Positions 29,578-34,509 of a stretch of 64,000 nucleotides of DNA are shown here, piece after piece. The first letter of the stretch is position 1, and every line of letters starts with the position of its first letter. This DNA comes from Erythrobacter sp. AP23 (lineage in GTDB: Bacteria; Pseudomonadota; Alphaproteobacteria; Sphingomonadales; Sphingomonadaceae): positions 248,001 to 312,000 of the forward strand of contig NZ_LNBY01000017.1 in the NCBI RefSeq assembly GCF_001542855.1. Direction: 5' to 3'. A program made the translations under genes and the position numbers. The notes under the pieces are model-generated. The model saw only the letters and a list, made by a program, of their open reading frames with translations, was not told where the DNA came from and did not search any database.

Positions 29578-29754
29578 TCAGCCGGACAGACCGCCGGGGC
29601 GGGTGAAAGCGTAATAGACCACGTAGAACCATCCGAAGAAACCGTGGATCGCGGCCCAGATGATCGACTGGTGCAAGCTCCAGCTGATCGCCACCGCAAT
29701 GGCGCTGCCCAGACCAATCCCTGCGCGCGCGGCATCGGTACGCACGACGGTCAA
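29578..29754 (-). CDS. Small two-helix membrane protein with TTG start
   Basis: 58 residues beginning (L/M)TVVRTDAARAGIGLG, with a first helix in AIAVAISWSLHQSIIWAAIHG and a second in FFGWFYVVYYAF. The start codon is TTG overlapping the previous gene's TGA (TTGA), the same coupled style as the genes upstream. No ATG or GTG alternative keeps the first helix. Looks conserved in style but not recognised. Confidence 0.65.
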   Translation of the reverse strand: MTVVRTDAARAGIGLGSAIAVAISWSLHQSIIWAAIHGFFGWFYVVYYAFTRPGGLSG

Positions 29755-29993
29755 AGATCGACTCCGCTCGCGATGGCTTCGAGCTTCTTGATCCGCTCCT
29801 TCAGGTCGGCCAATTCGATACGGGCTGCGCCGATCGAAGAACCGCTGTCTTGGTCCGTGCCGGTGCGATCCTGTTCTAGCTGCTGACGCTTGAGCGCCAG
29901 CCAGCCATGCCAGGCCCGCAGCAGGGCCGCAGCGACAATGGTCAGTCCGACCAGCGAAGCGCCTGCGATTATCATAGTCGGTTCGAACATCAC
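29751..29993 (-). CDS. PspB-like small membrane/coiled-coil protein, array member 6
   Basis: 80 residues. One N-terminal membrane helix (about 6-27), a polar linker, then a short coiled coil ending LADLKERIKKLEAIASGVDL. This is a shortened form of the C-terminal LER(I)-x-T/S module carried by the upstream genes; the EIxxLR end is missing. Separated from the previous array gene by 28 nt. The most diverged or truncated copy. Confidence 0.7.
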   Translation of the reverse strand: MMFEPTMIIAGASLVGLTIVAAALLRAWHGWLALKRQQLEQDRTGTDQDSGSSIGAARIELADLKERIKKLEAIASGVDL

Positions 29994-30021
29994 CTCATGT
30001 CCTCCTTGAACCTTGCCGTCC

Positions 30022-30309
30022 TCAATCCGCCTGCTTGTCGCGCAGGGCCTCGATCTCGGAGGCGATTCGTTTCGTTTCGCGCGCGTCGACCGAATTGCGT
30101 TCGGTTGCGATACGCTCGAGTACCTTTATCCTCTCGCGCAGCTCCTCGATCTCGCGCTGCGCTTCCGTATCCGTCGCCTGACCGGCGTAGCTCTCGTTGC
30201 CTTCCTTGTCGGTCAGGATGCCGCGTTCGTTGCGATGCCTCACCCTGGATATCTGGACGATGCCCCAGACCACGATCGCGATGATGGCTACGATCACCCA
30301 ACCGCTCAT
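30022..30309 (-). CDS. PspB-like small membrane/coiled-coil protein, array member 5
   Basis: 95 residues. N-terminal helix WVIVAIIAIVVWGIVQI, basic VRHRNER, a linker, and a coiled coil REIEELRERIKVLERIATER followed after a spacer by IASEIEALRDKQ. It has the shared C-terminal module with an insertion in the middle. Its start overlaps the stop of member 4's neighbour frame by 4 nt, giving translational coupling. Confidence 0.75.
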   Translation of the reverse strand: MSGWVIVAIIAIVVWGIVQISRVRHRNERGILTDKEGNESYAGQATDTEAQREIEELRERIKVLERIATERNSVDARETKRIASEIEALRDKQAD

Positions 30310-30620
30310 CGTGCGCGCTCCCGCTGGCTTGTCAGATCCTCGATCTCCTGCAGGTCGCGTAGCTGCTCGATCTGAGCGGTGAGATTGTGATTGCCGTCGG
30401 TGGCGATCCGCTCCAGCACGCGAACCCGCTCTTCAAGCTTGGCGTAGTCGGCGCTGCCCTTGCCGATCTGATCGGCCTTGGCCTGCTCGATCTGCGCCTT
30501 AAGCTCCAGCTTGCGCTCGTCATGACGGACCACGCGGCGATGGATGACGTGGGCGGTCAGTAGCGCCATCGTCACGATCGTGATGATGAAGCCGAAAATA
30601 AGGATCAGGTCGCCATCCAT
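30306..30620 (-). CDS. PspB-like small membrane/coiled-coil protein, array member 4
   Basis: 104 residues. N-terminal helix LILIFGFIITIVTMALLTAHVI, a strongly charged helical region (RHDERKLELKAQIEQAKADQ), then KLEERVRVLERIATDGNHNL and TAQIEQLRDLQEIED. Overlaps member 5 by 4 nt and abuts member 3 by 1 nt. The N-terminus lies outside or in the membrane and the coiled coil in the cytosol, by analogy with PspB. Confidence 0.77.
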   Translation of the reverse strand: MDGDLILIFGFIITIVTMALLTAHVIHRRVVRHDERKLELKAQIEQAKADQIGKGSADYAKLEERVRVLERIATDGNHNLTAQIEQLRDLQEIEDLTSQRERAR

Positions 30621-30931
30621 CAGTTGGTTTCCTTGCCATCGCGCAGGCGGTCGATCTCATGCGTCAGATGGTAACCGCTATCGGTCACGATCCGTTCGAC
30701 ATTGCCGAGCCGATCCTTGAGCGAGCCGAGTTCGGCACGCAATTCGGCATTTTCCTGAGTGAGCAGCTTGACCCGCTCGACCGCTTGGTCGGTCTTGGGG
30801 TAGACCGCCTTGCCCCAGCTGTTCTCCAGCGGATAGCCGTTCTTGACGCGGATCCAGGTGTTGGCGATCCAGGCGAGCGATATGGCAATCACTCCGCCGA
30901 TAACGGTCGTTTCGGTGATGAATTCCATCAC
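30620..30931 (-). CDS. PspB-like small membrane/coiled-coil protein, array member 3
   Basis: 103 residues. N-terminal helix TVIGGVIAISLAWIANTWI, then RVKNGYPLENSWGKAV, closely paralleling member 2 (RAKHGYSLEDEWGGK). Next comes a heptad-rich LLTQENAELRAELGSLKDRL and the C-terminal module VERIVTDSGYHLTHEIDRLRD. Overlaps member 2's stop by 4 nt. Members 2 and 3 look like the most recent duplication of the array. Confidence 0.78.
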   Translation of the reverse strand: MMEFITETTVIGGVIAISLAWIANTWIRVKNGYPLENSWGKAVYPKTDQAVERVKLLTQENAELRAELGSLKDRLGNVERIVTDSGYHLTHEIDRLRDGKETN

Positions 30932-31269
30932 GCTTTCTCCCCTGTCTTGATGTCCAACGGCATACCGGTACCGTCTGCAGCCGGCCTGTCGCGCAGCGCC
31001 TCGATCTCGTCGTGCAGCGAATAACCTCGGTCGGTGACGATCTTCTCCAGCACGACCATGCGATCCTGCATGGTATCGAGCTTCTCGTGCAGCGCGCGGT
31101 TTTCCTCACGCAGACGTTTGGTCTCGCTAGTGTCGGCGCGTTCGGTCTTGCCGCCCCACTCGTCTTCGAGCGAGTAGCCGTGCTTGGCGCGGATCCAGTT
31201 GTTGATCAGCCAACCACCGGTGCTCAGCGCGATTATCGCGATCACGAATTCGGGGCCACCCCAGTTCAT
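30928..31269 (-). CDS. PspB-like small membrane/coiled-coil protein, array member 2
   Basis: 113 residues. N-terminal helix PEFVIAIIALSTGGWLINNWI, the RAKHGYSLEDEWGG segment shared with member 3, coiled coil KRLREENRALHEKLDTMQDR, and the C-terminal module LEKIVTDRGYSLHDEIEALRD with a short tail MPLDIKTGEKA. The tail is almost repeated in member 1 (TPLEIKQGEKA). Overlaps member 1 by 4 nt. Confidence 0.78.
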   Translation of the reverse strand: MNWGGPEFVIAIIALSTGGWLINNWIRAKHGYSLEDEWGGKTERADTSETKRLREENRALHEKLDTMQDRMVVLEKIVTDRGYSLHDEIEALRDRPAADGTGMPLDIKTGEKA

Positions 31270-31574
31270 TGCGCTTTCTCTCCCTGTTTTATTTCGAGCG
31301 GAGTGCCGGTTCCTTGGTCGTCGACCTTGCGTTGATCGCGAAGGGCCTCGATCTGGGTTGCAATGTCATAGCCGCGGTCGGTTACGATGCGTTCGAGTAC
31401 CTGAACCCTCTGTTCCAGTTCGGTGACGCGACTGGCGTATTGCGCGGCCTTTTCGGAACTGGCTTCGGCGGTGGCAGCGATGCGCTTTTCTTCCAGCTTG
31501 CGGTTGTTCACCAGCCAGATGATGCCAAGCACCATGATGAAGGGCGCCAACGGTATGAGTATTTCCAGTCCCAT
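31266..31574 (-). CDS. PspB-like small membrane/coiled-coil protein, array member 1
   Basis: 102 residues. N-terminal helix LEILIPLAPFIMVLGIIWLV, charged helix, coiled coil VTELEQRVQVLERIVTDRGY then IATQIEALRDQRK, and a tail GTPLEIKQGEKAQ. It follows pspC by 26 nt. Clearest match to the shared module. Compared with E. coli PspB, it is longer and has the extra EIxxLR segment after the coiled coil. Confidence 0.8.
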   Translation of the reverse strand: MGLEILIPLAPFIMVLGIIWLVNNRKLEEKRIAATAEASSEKAAQYASRVTELEQRVQVLERIVTDRGYDIATQIEALRDQRKVDDQGTGTPLEIKQGEKAQ

Positions 31575-31600: not shown

Positions 31601-31978
31601 TTAGCGAAGCCGTTCGATCTCGGCGGTCAGGCGCGGATTGCTGCTGACGTAGAAGGTTTCCACTTCAGCCAGGCGACGGTCGACATCCTTCATGCGGGCA
31701 CGGATTTCGCGTGCCGTGCGCTTCGGATTCTGCCGCACGCGCTGCCAATAGTTCTGCTCTTCACGATCGACATAGAGATGCGCAGGCTTCTTGTTCAGCA
31801 GCAGGCCGGCGATGAAATAGAACGGGATAGTCGAACCGCCGCTCATGAAGGTCAGGCCGAGAAAGCCGAGGCGCACCCAGAAAGCGTTGACACCGGTGTA
31901 GTCCGCGATGCCCGAGCAGACGCCCATCAACTTTGCATTCTGCTTGTCGCGGTAAAGCGTTGTGCGGGGACTGTTCAC
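31601..31978 (-). CDS. pspC: Phage shock protein C
   Basis: 125 residues. The PspC domain spans about 8-70: LYRDKQNAKLMGVCSGIADY, the WVRLGFLGLTF helix and PFYFIAGLLLNKKP. It is followed by a cytosolic tail that ends VETFYVSSNPRLTAEIERLR, matching the module of the downstream small proteins. PspC, with PspB, senses membrane stress and releases PspF from PspA. Overlaps the pspB stop by 4 nt. Confidence 0.92.
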   Translation of the reverse strand: MNSPRTTLYRDKQNAKLMGVCSGIADYTGVNAFWVRLGFLGLTFMSGGSTIPFYFIAGLLLNKKPAHLYVDREEQNYWQRVRQNPKRTAREIRARMKDVDRRLAEVETFYVSSNPRLTAEIERLR

Positions 31979-32271
31979 TGGCTGGCTCCTTTTTTCTCGG
32001 CCATCAGCTGCTCGAGTTCGCGCAGCTGCTGATTGTCCTGCTCGCTGTCGTGGACGAGGCGCGCGGGCTTGAATTCGGGATTGTCGCTGGCGACCAGGCG
32101 CTCGACCGTGTCCATCCGGTCGTCGAGGCGTTTGGCGAGGCTGTAGAGCTCCTCCAGCAGAGCCTCGTCATCGGTGGTGATGGTTGCCGAGGTCTTCCAT
32201 TTGGTGATGTAGTGGAGGATGATCCACGGTAAGCCGATGAATATGGCTACGATTGCAAAAATCTCTTCCAC
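31975..32271 (-). CDS. pspB: Phage shock protein B
   Basis: 98 residues, longer than the 74 of E. coli. N-terminal helix IFAIVAIFIGLPWIILHYI with the WIxLHY signature of PspB, then a coiled coil ALLEELYSLAKRLDDRMDTVERLVASDNPEF, and an additional C-terminal helix after HDSEQDNQQ. It starts 3 nt after pspA. Inner-membrane partner of PspC. Confidence 0.92.
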   Translation of the reverse strand: MEEIFAIVAIFIGLPWIILHYITKWKTSATITTDDEALLEELYSLAKRLDDRMDTVERLVASDNPEFKPARLVHDSEQDNQQLRELEQLMAEKKGASQ

Positions 32272-32274
32272 GGA

Positions 32275-32964
32275 TCAGTCCTCCTTGTCGGCGCTGCTTT
32301 TGCCGAGCGCCTTTTTCATCTGTTCGAGTTCGTCATCGATCGCGTCGGCACCTTCCAGTGCCGCGATCTCGTCCGACAGGCTCGGCTTGTCCGACTTGTC
32401 GGCAATGCTCAGCGCATCCGCGCGGCCCTCGGCATAATCGACGCGGCGTTCGAGCTGGTCGAACCGGTTGAGCGCATCGTCGACGCGTTCGTTGGTCATC
32501 AGGCTGCGCAGCTTGACGCGGTTTTCCGCGCTTTCGAGCCGGGCGGCGATGGCGGTCTGGCGGCTGCGGGCCTCGCGTAGGCGATTCTGCAGCTTCTGGA
32601 TGTCCTGCTCGTAGGCGCGCAGTGCGTCGTCGAGTACGGCAATCTCCTGCTTGAGCTGCTCGCTCATGTCGGCCGCTTTCTTCTTTTCGACGAGTGCGGC
32701 GCGAGCGAGATCTTCGCGGTCCTTGGAGATGGCGAGCTGCGCCTTCTCGTTCCAGTCCGCCTGCAGCTTGTCGAGCTTGACCGTATGGCGATGCATCTCC
32801 TTCTGGTCGGCGATCGTGCGCGCCGCGCTGGCGCGGACTTCGACCAGCGTTTCCTCCATTTCGAGGATGATCATGCGGATCATCTTCTGGGGGTCGTCCG
32901 CTTTGTCGAGCATGTCGTTAAAATTGGCGGCGATGATATCGCGGGTGCGGCTGAAAATGCCCAT
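32275..32964 (-). CDS. pspA: Phage shock protein A (PspA/IM30, ESCRT-III fold)
   Basis: 229 residues from MGIFSRTRDIIAANFNDMLD, the normal PspA start, with GGAG eight nt upstream. The amphipathic N-terminal helix is followed by long coiled coils typical of PspA: DDPQKMIRMIILEMEETLVEVR, the Ala/Glu-rich middle, and a C-terminal helix EQMKKALGKSSADKED. It binds stressed membranes and inhibits PspF. The frame stays open for another 69 codons upstream to an ATG (33171) that overlaps the stop of the preceding small gene, so a longer form is possible. Confidence 0.93.
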   Translation of the reverse strand: MGIFSRTRDIIAANFNDMLDKADDPQKMIRMIILEMEETLVEVRASAARTIADQKEMHRHTVKLDKLQADWNEKAQLAISKDREDLARAALVEKKKAADMSEQLKQEIAVLDDALRAYEQDIQKLQNRLREARSRQTAIAARLESAENRVKLRSLMTNERVDDALNRFDQLERRVDYAEGRADALSIADKSDKPSLSDEIAALEGADAIDDELEQMKKALGKSSADKED

Positions 32965-33167
32965 CAATGGTGCTCCACTGGAGAAAAAGTCGGATCCCTT
33001 GGACCGTCCGCCATCGCGGGTGGGAGTCGGCGAGCGGCGCAGCCGTTCTACCTCTTCCTCGATCCGCGACAAGCGGGGGCGGGCCGGAGAGTCGTCGGCA
33101 TCGCTGCCGTGGGGACTGTCGGGGGAGCGACGCTCCGGCCCAAGGGGATCATGGTCGGGAGGCAGGG

Positions 33168-33320
33168 TCATGCGATCTCGACCTGTTCGTATGCGGCCAT
33201 AATCGGCGTGGGTGCAGTAACCGCGATCTGCGAGCTCAGCAGGACGAAAGTGCCCATCGCCGCGATGCTGGCGATTGCGGCCTGTCCGAGCTGGCTGCGG
33301 AAGAAGCTGCGGTTGTACAT
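33168..33320 (-). CDS. Small membrane protein leading the psp operon
   Basis: 50 residues: MYNRSFFRSQLGQAAIASIA then a hydrophobic stretch AMGTFVLLSSQIAV and a tail MAAYEQVEIA. The ATG has an excellent GGGAGGTAA ribosome site and lies about 40 nt after the predicted sigma-54 start point, so it is the first gene of the psp transcript. Its TGA overlaps an ATG (ATGA) in frame with pspA. No family recognised; role in the psp response is inference from position. Confidence 0.75.
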   Translation of the reverse strand: MYNRSFFRSQLGQAAIASIAAMGTFVLLSSQIAVTAPTPIMAAYEQVEIA

Positions 33321-33371: not shown

Positions 33372-33387
33372 AGCAAGTGCCATGCCA
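33372..33387 (-). promoter_or_regulatory. Sigma-54 (-24/-12) promoter of the psp operon
   Basis: On the minus strand TGGCATGGCACTTGCT, against consensus TGGCACG-N4-TTGCW. The GG and GC doublets are exactly 10 nt apart. Predicted start near 33361, ~40 nt before the first psp ATG. The activator PspF is encoded divergently. Confidence 0.8.
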
Positions 33388-33446: not shown

Positions 33447-33486
33447 TTGATTGCCAAGTATCGGGAAAAATTCCTATCTCTTGGCT

Positions 33487-34509
33487 ATGGAGCGGGAAAA
33501 TCAGTTTATCGGTCAGTCGGGCGCCTTCCTCGATGCGGTCGAGCGCGCCAGCCGTGCAGCGCCCATGCGGCGCCCCGTGCTCGTCATCGGGGAGCGCGGG
33601 ACCGGCAAGGAACTGATTGCCGAACGCTTGCATCGCCTTTCCACCCGCTGGGACGAACCTCTGGTCGTCATGAACTGCGCCGCGTTGCCCGAAACGCTGA
33701 TCGAGGCCGAGCTGTTCGGGCACGAGGCGGGTGCATTTACCGGTGCTACCAGAGTCCGCGCCGGAAGATTCGAAGAAGCCGACAAGGGGACGCTATTTCT
33801 CGACGAACTGGGTACTTTGTCGATGGGTGCCCAGGAAAGGCTGCTCCGTGCCGTGGAATATGGCGAGGTAACGCGGATCGGCTCGAGTCGCCCCACACGT
33901 GTCGATGTACGTATCGTTGCTGCGACGAACGAGGATCTTCCGGCCAAGGCTGCGCGCGGCGATTTCCGCGCCGACCTGCTCGACCGGCTCAGCTTCGAGG
34001 TCATCACTCTGCCTCCCTTACGCGTGCGCGAGGGCGATGTCGCGGTTCTGGCGGATTATTTCGGGCGCCGCATGGCAGCCGAACTGGGGTGGGAAGGCTG
34101 GCCCGGCTTCGCGCCGCATGTCGCCGAACAGCTCGAGAAACACGACTGGCCCGGCAACGTCCGGGAATTGCGCAATGTCGTCGAACGGGCGATCTATCGC
34201 TGGGACGATTGGGATCAGCCGATCGGACATGTAATCTTCGACCCCTTCGACAGCCCATGGAAGCCCAAGGGCCTGCCGGTGCCGGCAAGCAAGGCGCCAA
34301 GTGCAGCACAGGTCGCGCCTAAACCGGCCGCTCCCGATTTCGATGGGATCGACGATTTGCGTGCTGCGGTCGATACGCACGAAAGGGCGATCGTCGAATA
34401 TGCGCTCGGCAAGCATCGCTGGAATCAGCGGCAGACCGCCAAGGCGCTGGGGCTGACCTACGACCAGCTGCGTCATTGCATCAAGAAACACGCGCTCGCG
34501 GAGGATTGA
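33487..34509 (+). CDS. pspF: PspF, sigma-54-dependent activator of the psp operon
   Basis: 340 residues from ATG 33487. No receiver or sensor domain; it begins directly with the AAA+ domain. Walker A GERGTGKE (35-42), the sigma-54-contacting GAFTGA loop (82-87) and Walker B GTLFLDE (101-107) are intact. C-terminal Fis-type helix-turn-helix around NQRQTAKALGLTYDQLRHCIKK, preceded by an Ala/Pro linker. Divergent from the psp operon as in enterobacteria. Normally held inactive by PspA. Confidence 0.93.
   Translation: MERENQFIGQSGAFLDAVERASRAAPMRRPVLVIGERGTGKELIAERLHRLSTRWDEPLVVMNCAALPETLIEAELFGHEAGAFTGATRVRAGRFEEADKGTLFLDELGTLSMGAQERLLRAVEYGEVTRIGSSRPTRVDVRIVAATNEDLPAKAARGDFRADLLDRLSFEVITLPPLRVREGDVAVLADYFGRRMAAELGWEGWPGFAPHVAEQLEKHDWPGNVRELRNVVERAIYRWDDWDQPIGHVIFDPFDSPWKPKGLPVPASKAPSAAQVAPKPAAPDFDGIDDLRAAVDTHERAIVEYALGKHRWNQRQTAKALGLTYDQLRHCIKKHALAED

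Follow-up and report, generated by a model that had tools for sequence, protein, structure and literature searches.

What guides PspA, a bacterial relative of the ESCRT-III proteins, to its proper site on the membrane remains an open question. PspB and PspC of gamma-proteobacteria associate in a complex in the inner membrane, and when the system is switched on the C-terminal cytoplasmic domain of PspC binds PspA and frees PspF (passages of PMC5596341). In Escherichia coli the leucine zipper of PspC is required for the interaction with PspA, although topology was debated (passages of PMC3068692). Here we describe an array of six short genes, M1 to M6 (positions 29751-31574, minus strand), that follows pspC in the psp operon of Erythrobacter sp. 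AP23, within a 64,000-nucleotide (nt) stretch of contig NZ_LNBY01000017.1 (hereafter the window, meaning this whole stretch). As judged from their sequences, M1-M5 combine the architecture of PspB with the tail of PspC. We give almost an even chance to the six genes having arisen in the psp operon by the lineage-specific expansion of a single protein family and supplying docks for PspA. Extra PspB-type genes in some psp operons have been mentioned before as "PspB duplicates", in one sentence with AOL22920.1 as the example, and in that respect they resemble the present array; the passages of that paper, however, give no array size, family, relation of the tail, distribution or classes (PMC11237479). 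In the open-licence PMC literature, supplements excluded, no description of the array, of its tail or of its distribution was found, and we regard the array as a variant of the known Psp system whose protein family had not previously been described in the literature searched.

The six genes, which we call ladder genes, encode M1 (31266-31574; 102 amino acids (aa); class B), M2 (30928-31269; 113 aa; class A, subclass A1; motif NNWIRAKHGYSLEDEWG), M3 (30620-30931; 103 aa; class A, subclass A2), M4 (30306-30620; 104 aa; class E), M5 (30022-30309; 95 aa; class D) and, as a conserved last gene, M6 (29751-29993; 80 aa, or 79 from an inner ATG; class C), all on the minus strand. A preliminary description of this DNA had placed six short genes here, each with one N-terminal membrane helix and most joined by overlaps of 4 or 1 nt, and the open reading frame (ORF) and gene calls agree with it: four of the five junctions within the array overlap, by 4 nt at M1/M2, 4 nt (GTG) or 1 nt (ATG) at M2/M3, 1 nt at M3/M4 and 4 nt at M4/M5, and M5 and M6 are separated by a gap of 28-31 nt. 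At the borders of the array, pspB and pspC overlap by 4 nt, pspC and M1 are 26 nt apart, and M6 overlaps the next ORF by 4 nt. The common strand, the overlapping or close genes and the single upstream sigma54-type site of the window place M1-M6 in the psp operon.

The C-terminal module shared by M1-M5 was analyzed with a held-out profile of 152 ladder proteins from loci outside the genus, which had first been picked with a window-based profile, yet include no sequence of the genus. Among the 661 ORFs of the window this profile matched M1-M5 with 68-95 bits and E values between 3e-20 and 1e-28 (M1, 6.1e-27; M2, 1e-28; M3, 1.8e-28; M4, 5.6e-22; M5, 3.1e-20), and the only other matches at E<=1 were M6 (1.4e-6), PspC (6e-5) and PspB (0.0023); a held-out profile of class C recognized M6 at 2.7e-35. 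When the whole genome was searched in six frames with a 17-row profile (A3) that includes M1-M5, six places were found at E<=0.01, namely M1-M5 and the tail of PspC. Outside the family, profile A4 matched 1 of 284 genomes of the class at E<=1e-6, and 4 of 144 genomes of the phylum were matched; these large runs scored the best candidates per genome (at most 26 for family and order, 18 for class and 34 for phylum), and some members may have been missed. The consensus of the module, R..VLERIVTD....LA.EIE.LR, was derived from 235 aligned members, in which the column entropies of R, E and the last L are 0.0 to one decimal, those of T and I 0.1 and that of D 0.3; the E is invariant only to this rounding, given that one ladder protein (L082_1) carries N instead, and this protein is among the 6 of 294 ladder proteins without the plain motif. 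The conserved T and D lie in the turn between the two halves of the module. M6 holds only the first half and ends midway, and class C aligned with the other classes over 53 columns (hhalign, E 1.3e-8).

The shared terminal module that had been described for the first five members thus stands above chance. It might be argued that the resemblance is that of any coiled coil and that the genes encode unrelated small membrane proteins, and several ladder members do match unrelated coiled-coil families weakly. This explanation, which had been named as one outcome that would undo the finding, is very improbable, because the matches of the held-out profile are near-exclusive and so few genomes of the class and phylum outside the family are matched; the specificity in the whole genome and the conserved T and D also speak against it. 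For M1-M5 the held-out profile refutes it, and for M6 the case rests on the E value of 1.4e-6 together with the profile match.

When the ladder was compared with PspC by profile-profile alignment (hhalign), the alignment extended to the C-terminal end of PspC both for the family (E 3.2e-8) and outside it (3.3e-6), whereas the match to PspB stopped before the second half of the module, and it is for this reason that M1-M5 are assigned, on sequence, a PspB architecture with a PspC tail. With PspA, which is likewise a coiled-coil protein encoded in the operon, a control alignment spanned 19 columns at E 0.0087. PspC of the window (31601-31978, minus strand; TIGR02978, 124.2 bits, cut-off 104) carries the ladder module as its own tail (RLAEVETFYVSSNPRLTAEIERLR); PspC tails outside the family read like MEAYMTSKRFKLERELRALED, and gamma-type PspC proteins end in METYVTSREYQLNKEISRL and similar sequences. 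The ladder profile also matched PspC and PspB proteins in genomes outside the class, and a weak match was found at the place of PspC in 19 of 19 congeners (PspC being set by coordinates in the window and by position elsewhere). The module is therefore not a trait of the ladder genes alone, for it is also the tail of PspC, and M6 has just half of it.

The likeness to PspC lies in the terminal R..(V/M)E..(V)T(D/S)......L..E(I/F)..L after a coiled coil, in the membrane anchor and in the common operon, but the ladder proteins have one membrane helix, lack the N-terminal domain of PspC (no match of M1-M6 to PF04024 at E<=1) and stay below the TIGR02978 cut-off of 104 bits (M3, 21 bits; M4, 17.4 bits). 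With PspB (TIGR02976, PF06667) they share their size, the single N-terminal membrane helix, the coiled coil and the place in the operon; nevertheless, none of M1-M6 reached the cut-offs of 51.7 and 25.6 bits, respectively (M1, 30.0/22.2; M4, 12.4/12.5; with TIGR02976 only, M5, 15.7 and M2, 10.4), M3 and M6 had no PspB match at E<=1, and M1-M5 add the second, PspC-type half of the module. The term "PspB-like", used for these proteins in the preliminary description, holds as to homology, architecture and their nature as single-pass proteins of a psp operon, but not as to the full tail, which is of the PspC type, nor as to the curated cut-offs. Hydropathy and charge only indicate a topology of the PspB type (one N-terminal helix, with the C-terminal side in the cytoplasm), and the C-terminal part of M1-M5 has the coiled coil and tail of PspC, M6 having half. 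A strong N-terminal helix was found in 280 of 294 ladder members, which had been pre-selected with a looser hydropathy filter, and the side after the helix was the more positive one in 266 of 294; M2, with a hydropathy of 1.56, lies just below the threshold of 1.6. In a low-confidence AlphaFold2 (AF2) model, M2 is predicted to form a helix at residues 6-29, a linker and a helix at residues 48-93. The profiles of PspC and M2 matched no solved structure below E 0.2.

Within the Genome Taxonomy Database (GTDB) family of the window, profile A3 found matches at E<=1e-4 in 136 of 136 genomes. Psp loci were collected in order of best PspA score (91 loci, a non-random set made up of all 18 congeners among the matches listed and of one to a few loci from each further genus; among these matches several family genera have no place). 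The 68 psp loci of the family read pspB-pspC-(1-7 ladder genes)-last gene, with pspC in 68, the last gene in 64 and a recognized pspB in 62 (PspB was not recovered at the other 6). A second set comprised 80 named loci, the best 80 of 494 relatives, which were found via the class C last gene, so that its presence there is by construction; three of them (L195, L206 and L215) stop short of pspA and were left out, and all 77 that reach both pspA and pspC have 2-8 ladder genes, with 8 in Croceibacterium salegens and Altererythrobacter segetis. The last gene aside, the ladder counts 3-5 genes in the 19 congeners and 1-8 over both sets of family loci, as counted with no gap limit, given that a count with a limit of 150 nt lost ladders at some loci (e.g., L070, L072, L084, L099 and L100) and had no PspA call at L091. 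The 294 proteins come from 64 loci and were kept by length and hydropathy; a second PspB-like gene product of another family (L106_1) was excluded from the ladder profiles.

A profile search had been proposed as a test of co-occurrence with pspABC, and within the family the bond was confirmed. All 113 matches (E<=0.01) in the 19 congeneric genomes are at most about 3.3 kilobases (kb) from pspA. For 24 further genera of the family, represented by one genome each, the psp cluster holds 101 of 103 matches (pspA beside the cluster was confirmed from the DNA in five of these genomes and from PspA search positions in the rest). The family would give an identity to many proteins that are annotated as hypothetical: the profile recognized 7998 of 8000 scored candidates (E<=0.01), and of the 120 candidates listed those that bear a name are mostly called "hypothetical protein".

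In the tree of the ladder proteins, classes A, B, C and E were supported at 0.991, 0.937, 0.996 and 0.856, with one outlier of another label in each of A and B, and class D grouped with F, G and others at 0.873. The order of the window, B-A-A-E-D-C, is exact in 8 of 19 congeneric loci (the window included); another 7 lack just one A, and the remaining 4 differ. Paralogues within the genus are 0.47 identical in the module versus 0.15 in the N-terminal part (n=146), and orthologues of classes B, E and D are 0.76-0.86 identical in the module and 0.56, 0.50 and 0.37, respectively, in the N-terminal part. Concerted evolution, or gene conversion, of the tails was not seen, the within-genome minus between-genome identity being 0.002 in the genus and 0.000 in the family. 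The median ratio of nonsynonymous to synonymous substitutions (dN/dS; simple Nei-Gojobori estimates from congener pairs with a proportion of synonymous differences, pS, of 0.05-0.72) was 0.09 for PspA, 0.12 for PspB, 0.18 for PspC and 0.20-0.36 for the ladder classes. From these ratios and from the class structure it follows that the ladder genes are real and constrained and evolve faster than pspA, pspB and pspC, and the main classes represent distinct, ancient lineages on which purifying selection acts. A structural role, in which ladder proteins join PspB and PspC in a mixed coiled-coil assembly that mainly stabilizes the membrane or PspC, with no docking or sensing roles of their own, while the copy number drifts by duplication and loss, would fit both the variable number of ladder genes (3-5 in congeners and 1-8 over the family loci) and their dN/dS above that of the core proteins. 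We consider it improbable, however, in that the main classes (A, B, C and E) have long stayed distinct and the genes are not homogenized within genomes, unlike what neutral copy-number drift would give.

A PspC-type tail on several single-pass proteins of the same operon is explained most simply by extra docks for PspA that mix with PspB and PspC, and the data suggest, by analogy with PspC, an expanded PspA docking array for membrane repair. The ladder proteins would be anchored in the inner membrane by a single pass, with the N-terminus out and the C-terminus in, as their charge bias predicts, and in each a membrane helix and a linker that are particular to its class would be followed by a coiled coil and, for M1-M5, by the PspC-type tail. 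Once the operon is switched on, they would presumably be made along with PspA. At 47 of 68 family loci the 700 bases that precede the PspA core contain the strict sigma54 pattern, against 0.3 expected from mononucleotide shuffles (one of the counted sites, in L040, lies only 112 nt before the core, inside a possible N-terminal extension), and it was found inside the operon at none of the 68. The tails of M1-M5 may act as that of PspC does and bind PspA and, when idle, PspB and PspC; from tail homology we infer this binding. The array would then provide several kinds of membrane dock that recruit PspA to sites of membrane damage and remove it from PspF, and through their differing helices and linkers the docks might come to lie in different oligomers or membrane contexts; M6, which has half a tail, may cap or silence the assembly. 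A further-reaching proposal, which we hold only tentatively, is that the Psp response of the whole family (GTDB Sphingomonadaceae, including the Erythrobacter-Qipengyuania group) has been rebuilt around a varying number (some 2-9) of receptors with the same tail and different anchors, which dock the ESCRT-III-like PspA at membrane sites of several kinds and which a conserved half-tail protein caps or silences, the PspA-binding tail of PspC being a portable module. A natural operon with the PspC tail on varied anchors lets the function of the tail, and the question of whether the anchor sets the placement, be asked directly.

The ladder proteins might instead be regulators of the PspB type, each helix being tuned to a lipid or protein signal of its own and all of them silencing or activating PspC through the coiled coil; the preliminary description had suggested that the ladder may widen the membrane signals sensed, or form a coiled-coil belt with PspC. 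We hold a role as PspB-type regulators to be rather unlikely, although several points speak for it: architecture and topology are PspB-like, the N-terminal parts differ among paralogues and are kept within classes B, E and D, and cytoplasmic PspB-PspC interactions reportedly silence the response. Against it stands the part of the module that the PspB match does not reach: this second half is of the PspC type and conserved in M1-M5, and a silencer would have no obvious need of it.

Several observations weigh against the ladder proteins being PspA docks bound to the psp operon. The coiled-coil half matches PspB with E 6.4e-9 outside the family and 1.3e-5 inside it, at least as strongly as it matches PspC, and no binding of PspA by PspB was found in E. 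coli (passages of PMC3068692); because of these two points, PspB-like silencing is nearly as plausible as docking. The AF2 models of M2 and PspC, both of low confidence, consist of helices only, with a predicted local distance difference test (pLDDT) score of 67 and 66, and 21 of 68 family loci gave no strict sigma54 site. The two exceptions among the 103 matches in other genera (L250, 2728-3117, and L251, 2813-3205, from two genera) are places outside psp where the module ends a soluble zinc-ribbon-like protein (CPKCRGRMTQG...). Outside the family, 46 of 61 genomes from other families of the order matched profile A3 at E<=1e-4, although in some of them the sole match may be PspB or the tail of PspC, and of 24 psp loci from other families 3 (L114, L116 and L117) have one ladder gene and 21 none. 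In 29 of 32 genomes from other families of the order, a match with E<1e-10 lies either over 40 kb away from pspA or on a different contig, the distant position often meaning another contig of a draft genome, and only 6 have a match beside pspA. That these genes would be scattered without pspABC, a prospect raised as a refutation of the array, hence holds in part outside the family and not within it. The bond between family and operon is thus not strict, and the distance of most of these relatives, together with a strict sigma54 site at only 1 of 27 orphans, suggests that the module can work without the operon. The psp copies of one other family (f8) group with f8 orphans (node supports 0.33-0.90), which suggests recruitment into the psp operon, possibly more than once.

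The DNA of 20 of the distant places was read, and single or paired genes of about 74-90 aa were found; four, from as many genomes of a single other family in the order (L135-L138), lie directly downstream of an rpoD-like gene, and several have flagellin-like genes nearby (neighbor names being sequence readings). The orphan proteins of about 74 aa resemble the ladder proteins in a near full-length profile match (E 1e-26 over 75 columns), but differ in their place away from pspA in the 20 places read and in that most end at the EIDxL of the module; none of the six tried reached a curated cut-off. Membership of the orphans in the PspF regulon was unsupported. Outside the class, single orphan relatives of 80-96 aa were also seen in three genomes, all from the same family (L258, L259 and L260).

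In the window, whose source genome comprises 3.4 Mb in 20 contigs, the psp region reads, on the minus strand, sigma54-type site, 50-aa ORF, pspA, pspB, pspC, M1-M6 and 58-aa ORF, and the genes that follow resemble sufE and others (names from sequence). A gene for a pspF-like sigma54 enhancer-binding protein, named from sequence and position, lies divergently at 33451-34509 on the plus strand (likely start 33487), and in most relatives a comparably long gene lies upstream of pspA on the opposite strand. The sigma54-type promoter-like site (TGGCATGGCACTTGCT, 33372-33387, minus strand) lies upstream of the operon and begins 423 nt before the start of the PspA core. The gene pspA occupies 32275-33171 (minus strand), of which 32275-32964 encode the core (TIGR02977, 279.1 bits, cut-off 242.95); an in-frame reading of 298 aa, with an unproven start, adds an N-terminal extension of 69 aa (32965-33171, minus strand), and in 20 of 67 gene-called family loci the PspA call exceeds 225 residues by about 60-100. 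The gene pspB (31975-32271, minus strand) was recognized with 91.7 bits by TIGR02976 (cut-off 51.7) and with 73 bits by Pfam PspB (cut-off 25.6). The hydrophobic 50-aa ORF (33168-33320, minus strand), the first past the sigma54-type site, shares an ATGA overlap with the N-extended pspA reading, and ORFs of 45-60 aa occur between the sigma54-type site and pspA in 26 of the 67 gene-called loci.

The family of the window presumably includes Zymomonas mobilis. Its pspA, pspB and pspC are up under ethanol stress, and also on xylose, there together with the small gene ZMO1062, named pspD in PMC8645129 (passages of PMC3495753 and PMC8645129). By its number ZMO1062 is a neighbor of pspA.

At the other end of the operon, a hydrophobic ORF of 58 aa (29578-29754, minus strand) overlaps M6 by 4 nt; family scans gave no match for it at E<=1, and an ORF of 57-59 aa with an equal overlap was found in 11 of 18 congener loci. 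Past the module, M1 (31266-31310) and M2 (30928-30970), both on the minus strand, have a C-terminal peptide in common (GTGTPLEIKQGEKA and GTGMPLDIKTGEKA, respectively), and a similar G..(V/T)PL-like end was found in 28 of 63 class B, 12 of 20 class A1 and 2 of 57 class A2 proteins and in one other protein. Two pspA-like genes were observed in each of 8 genomes of genus g12 (e.g., G092, G098 and G131), and in G092 a weak match of the ladder profile also adjoins the second of them (C2:445276).

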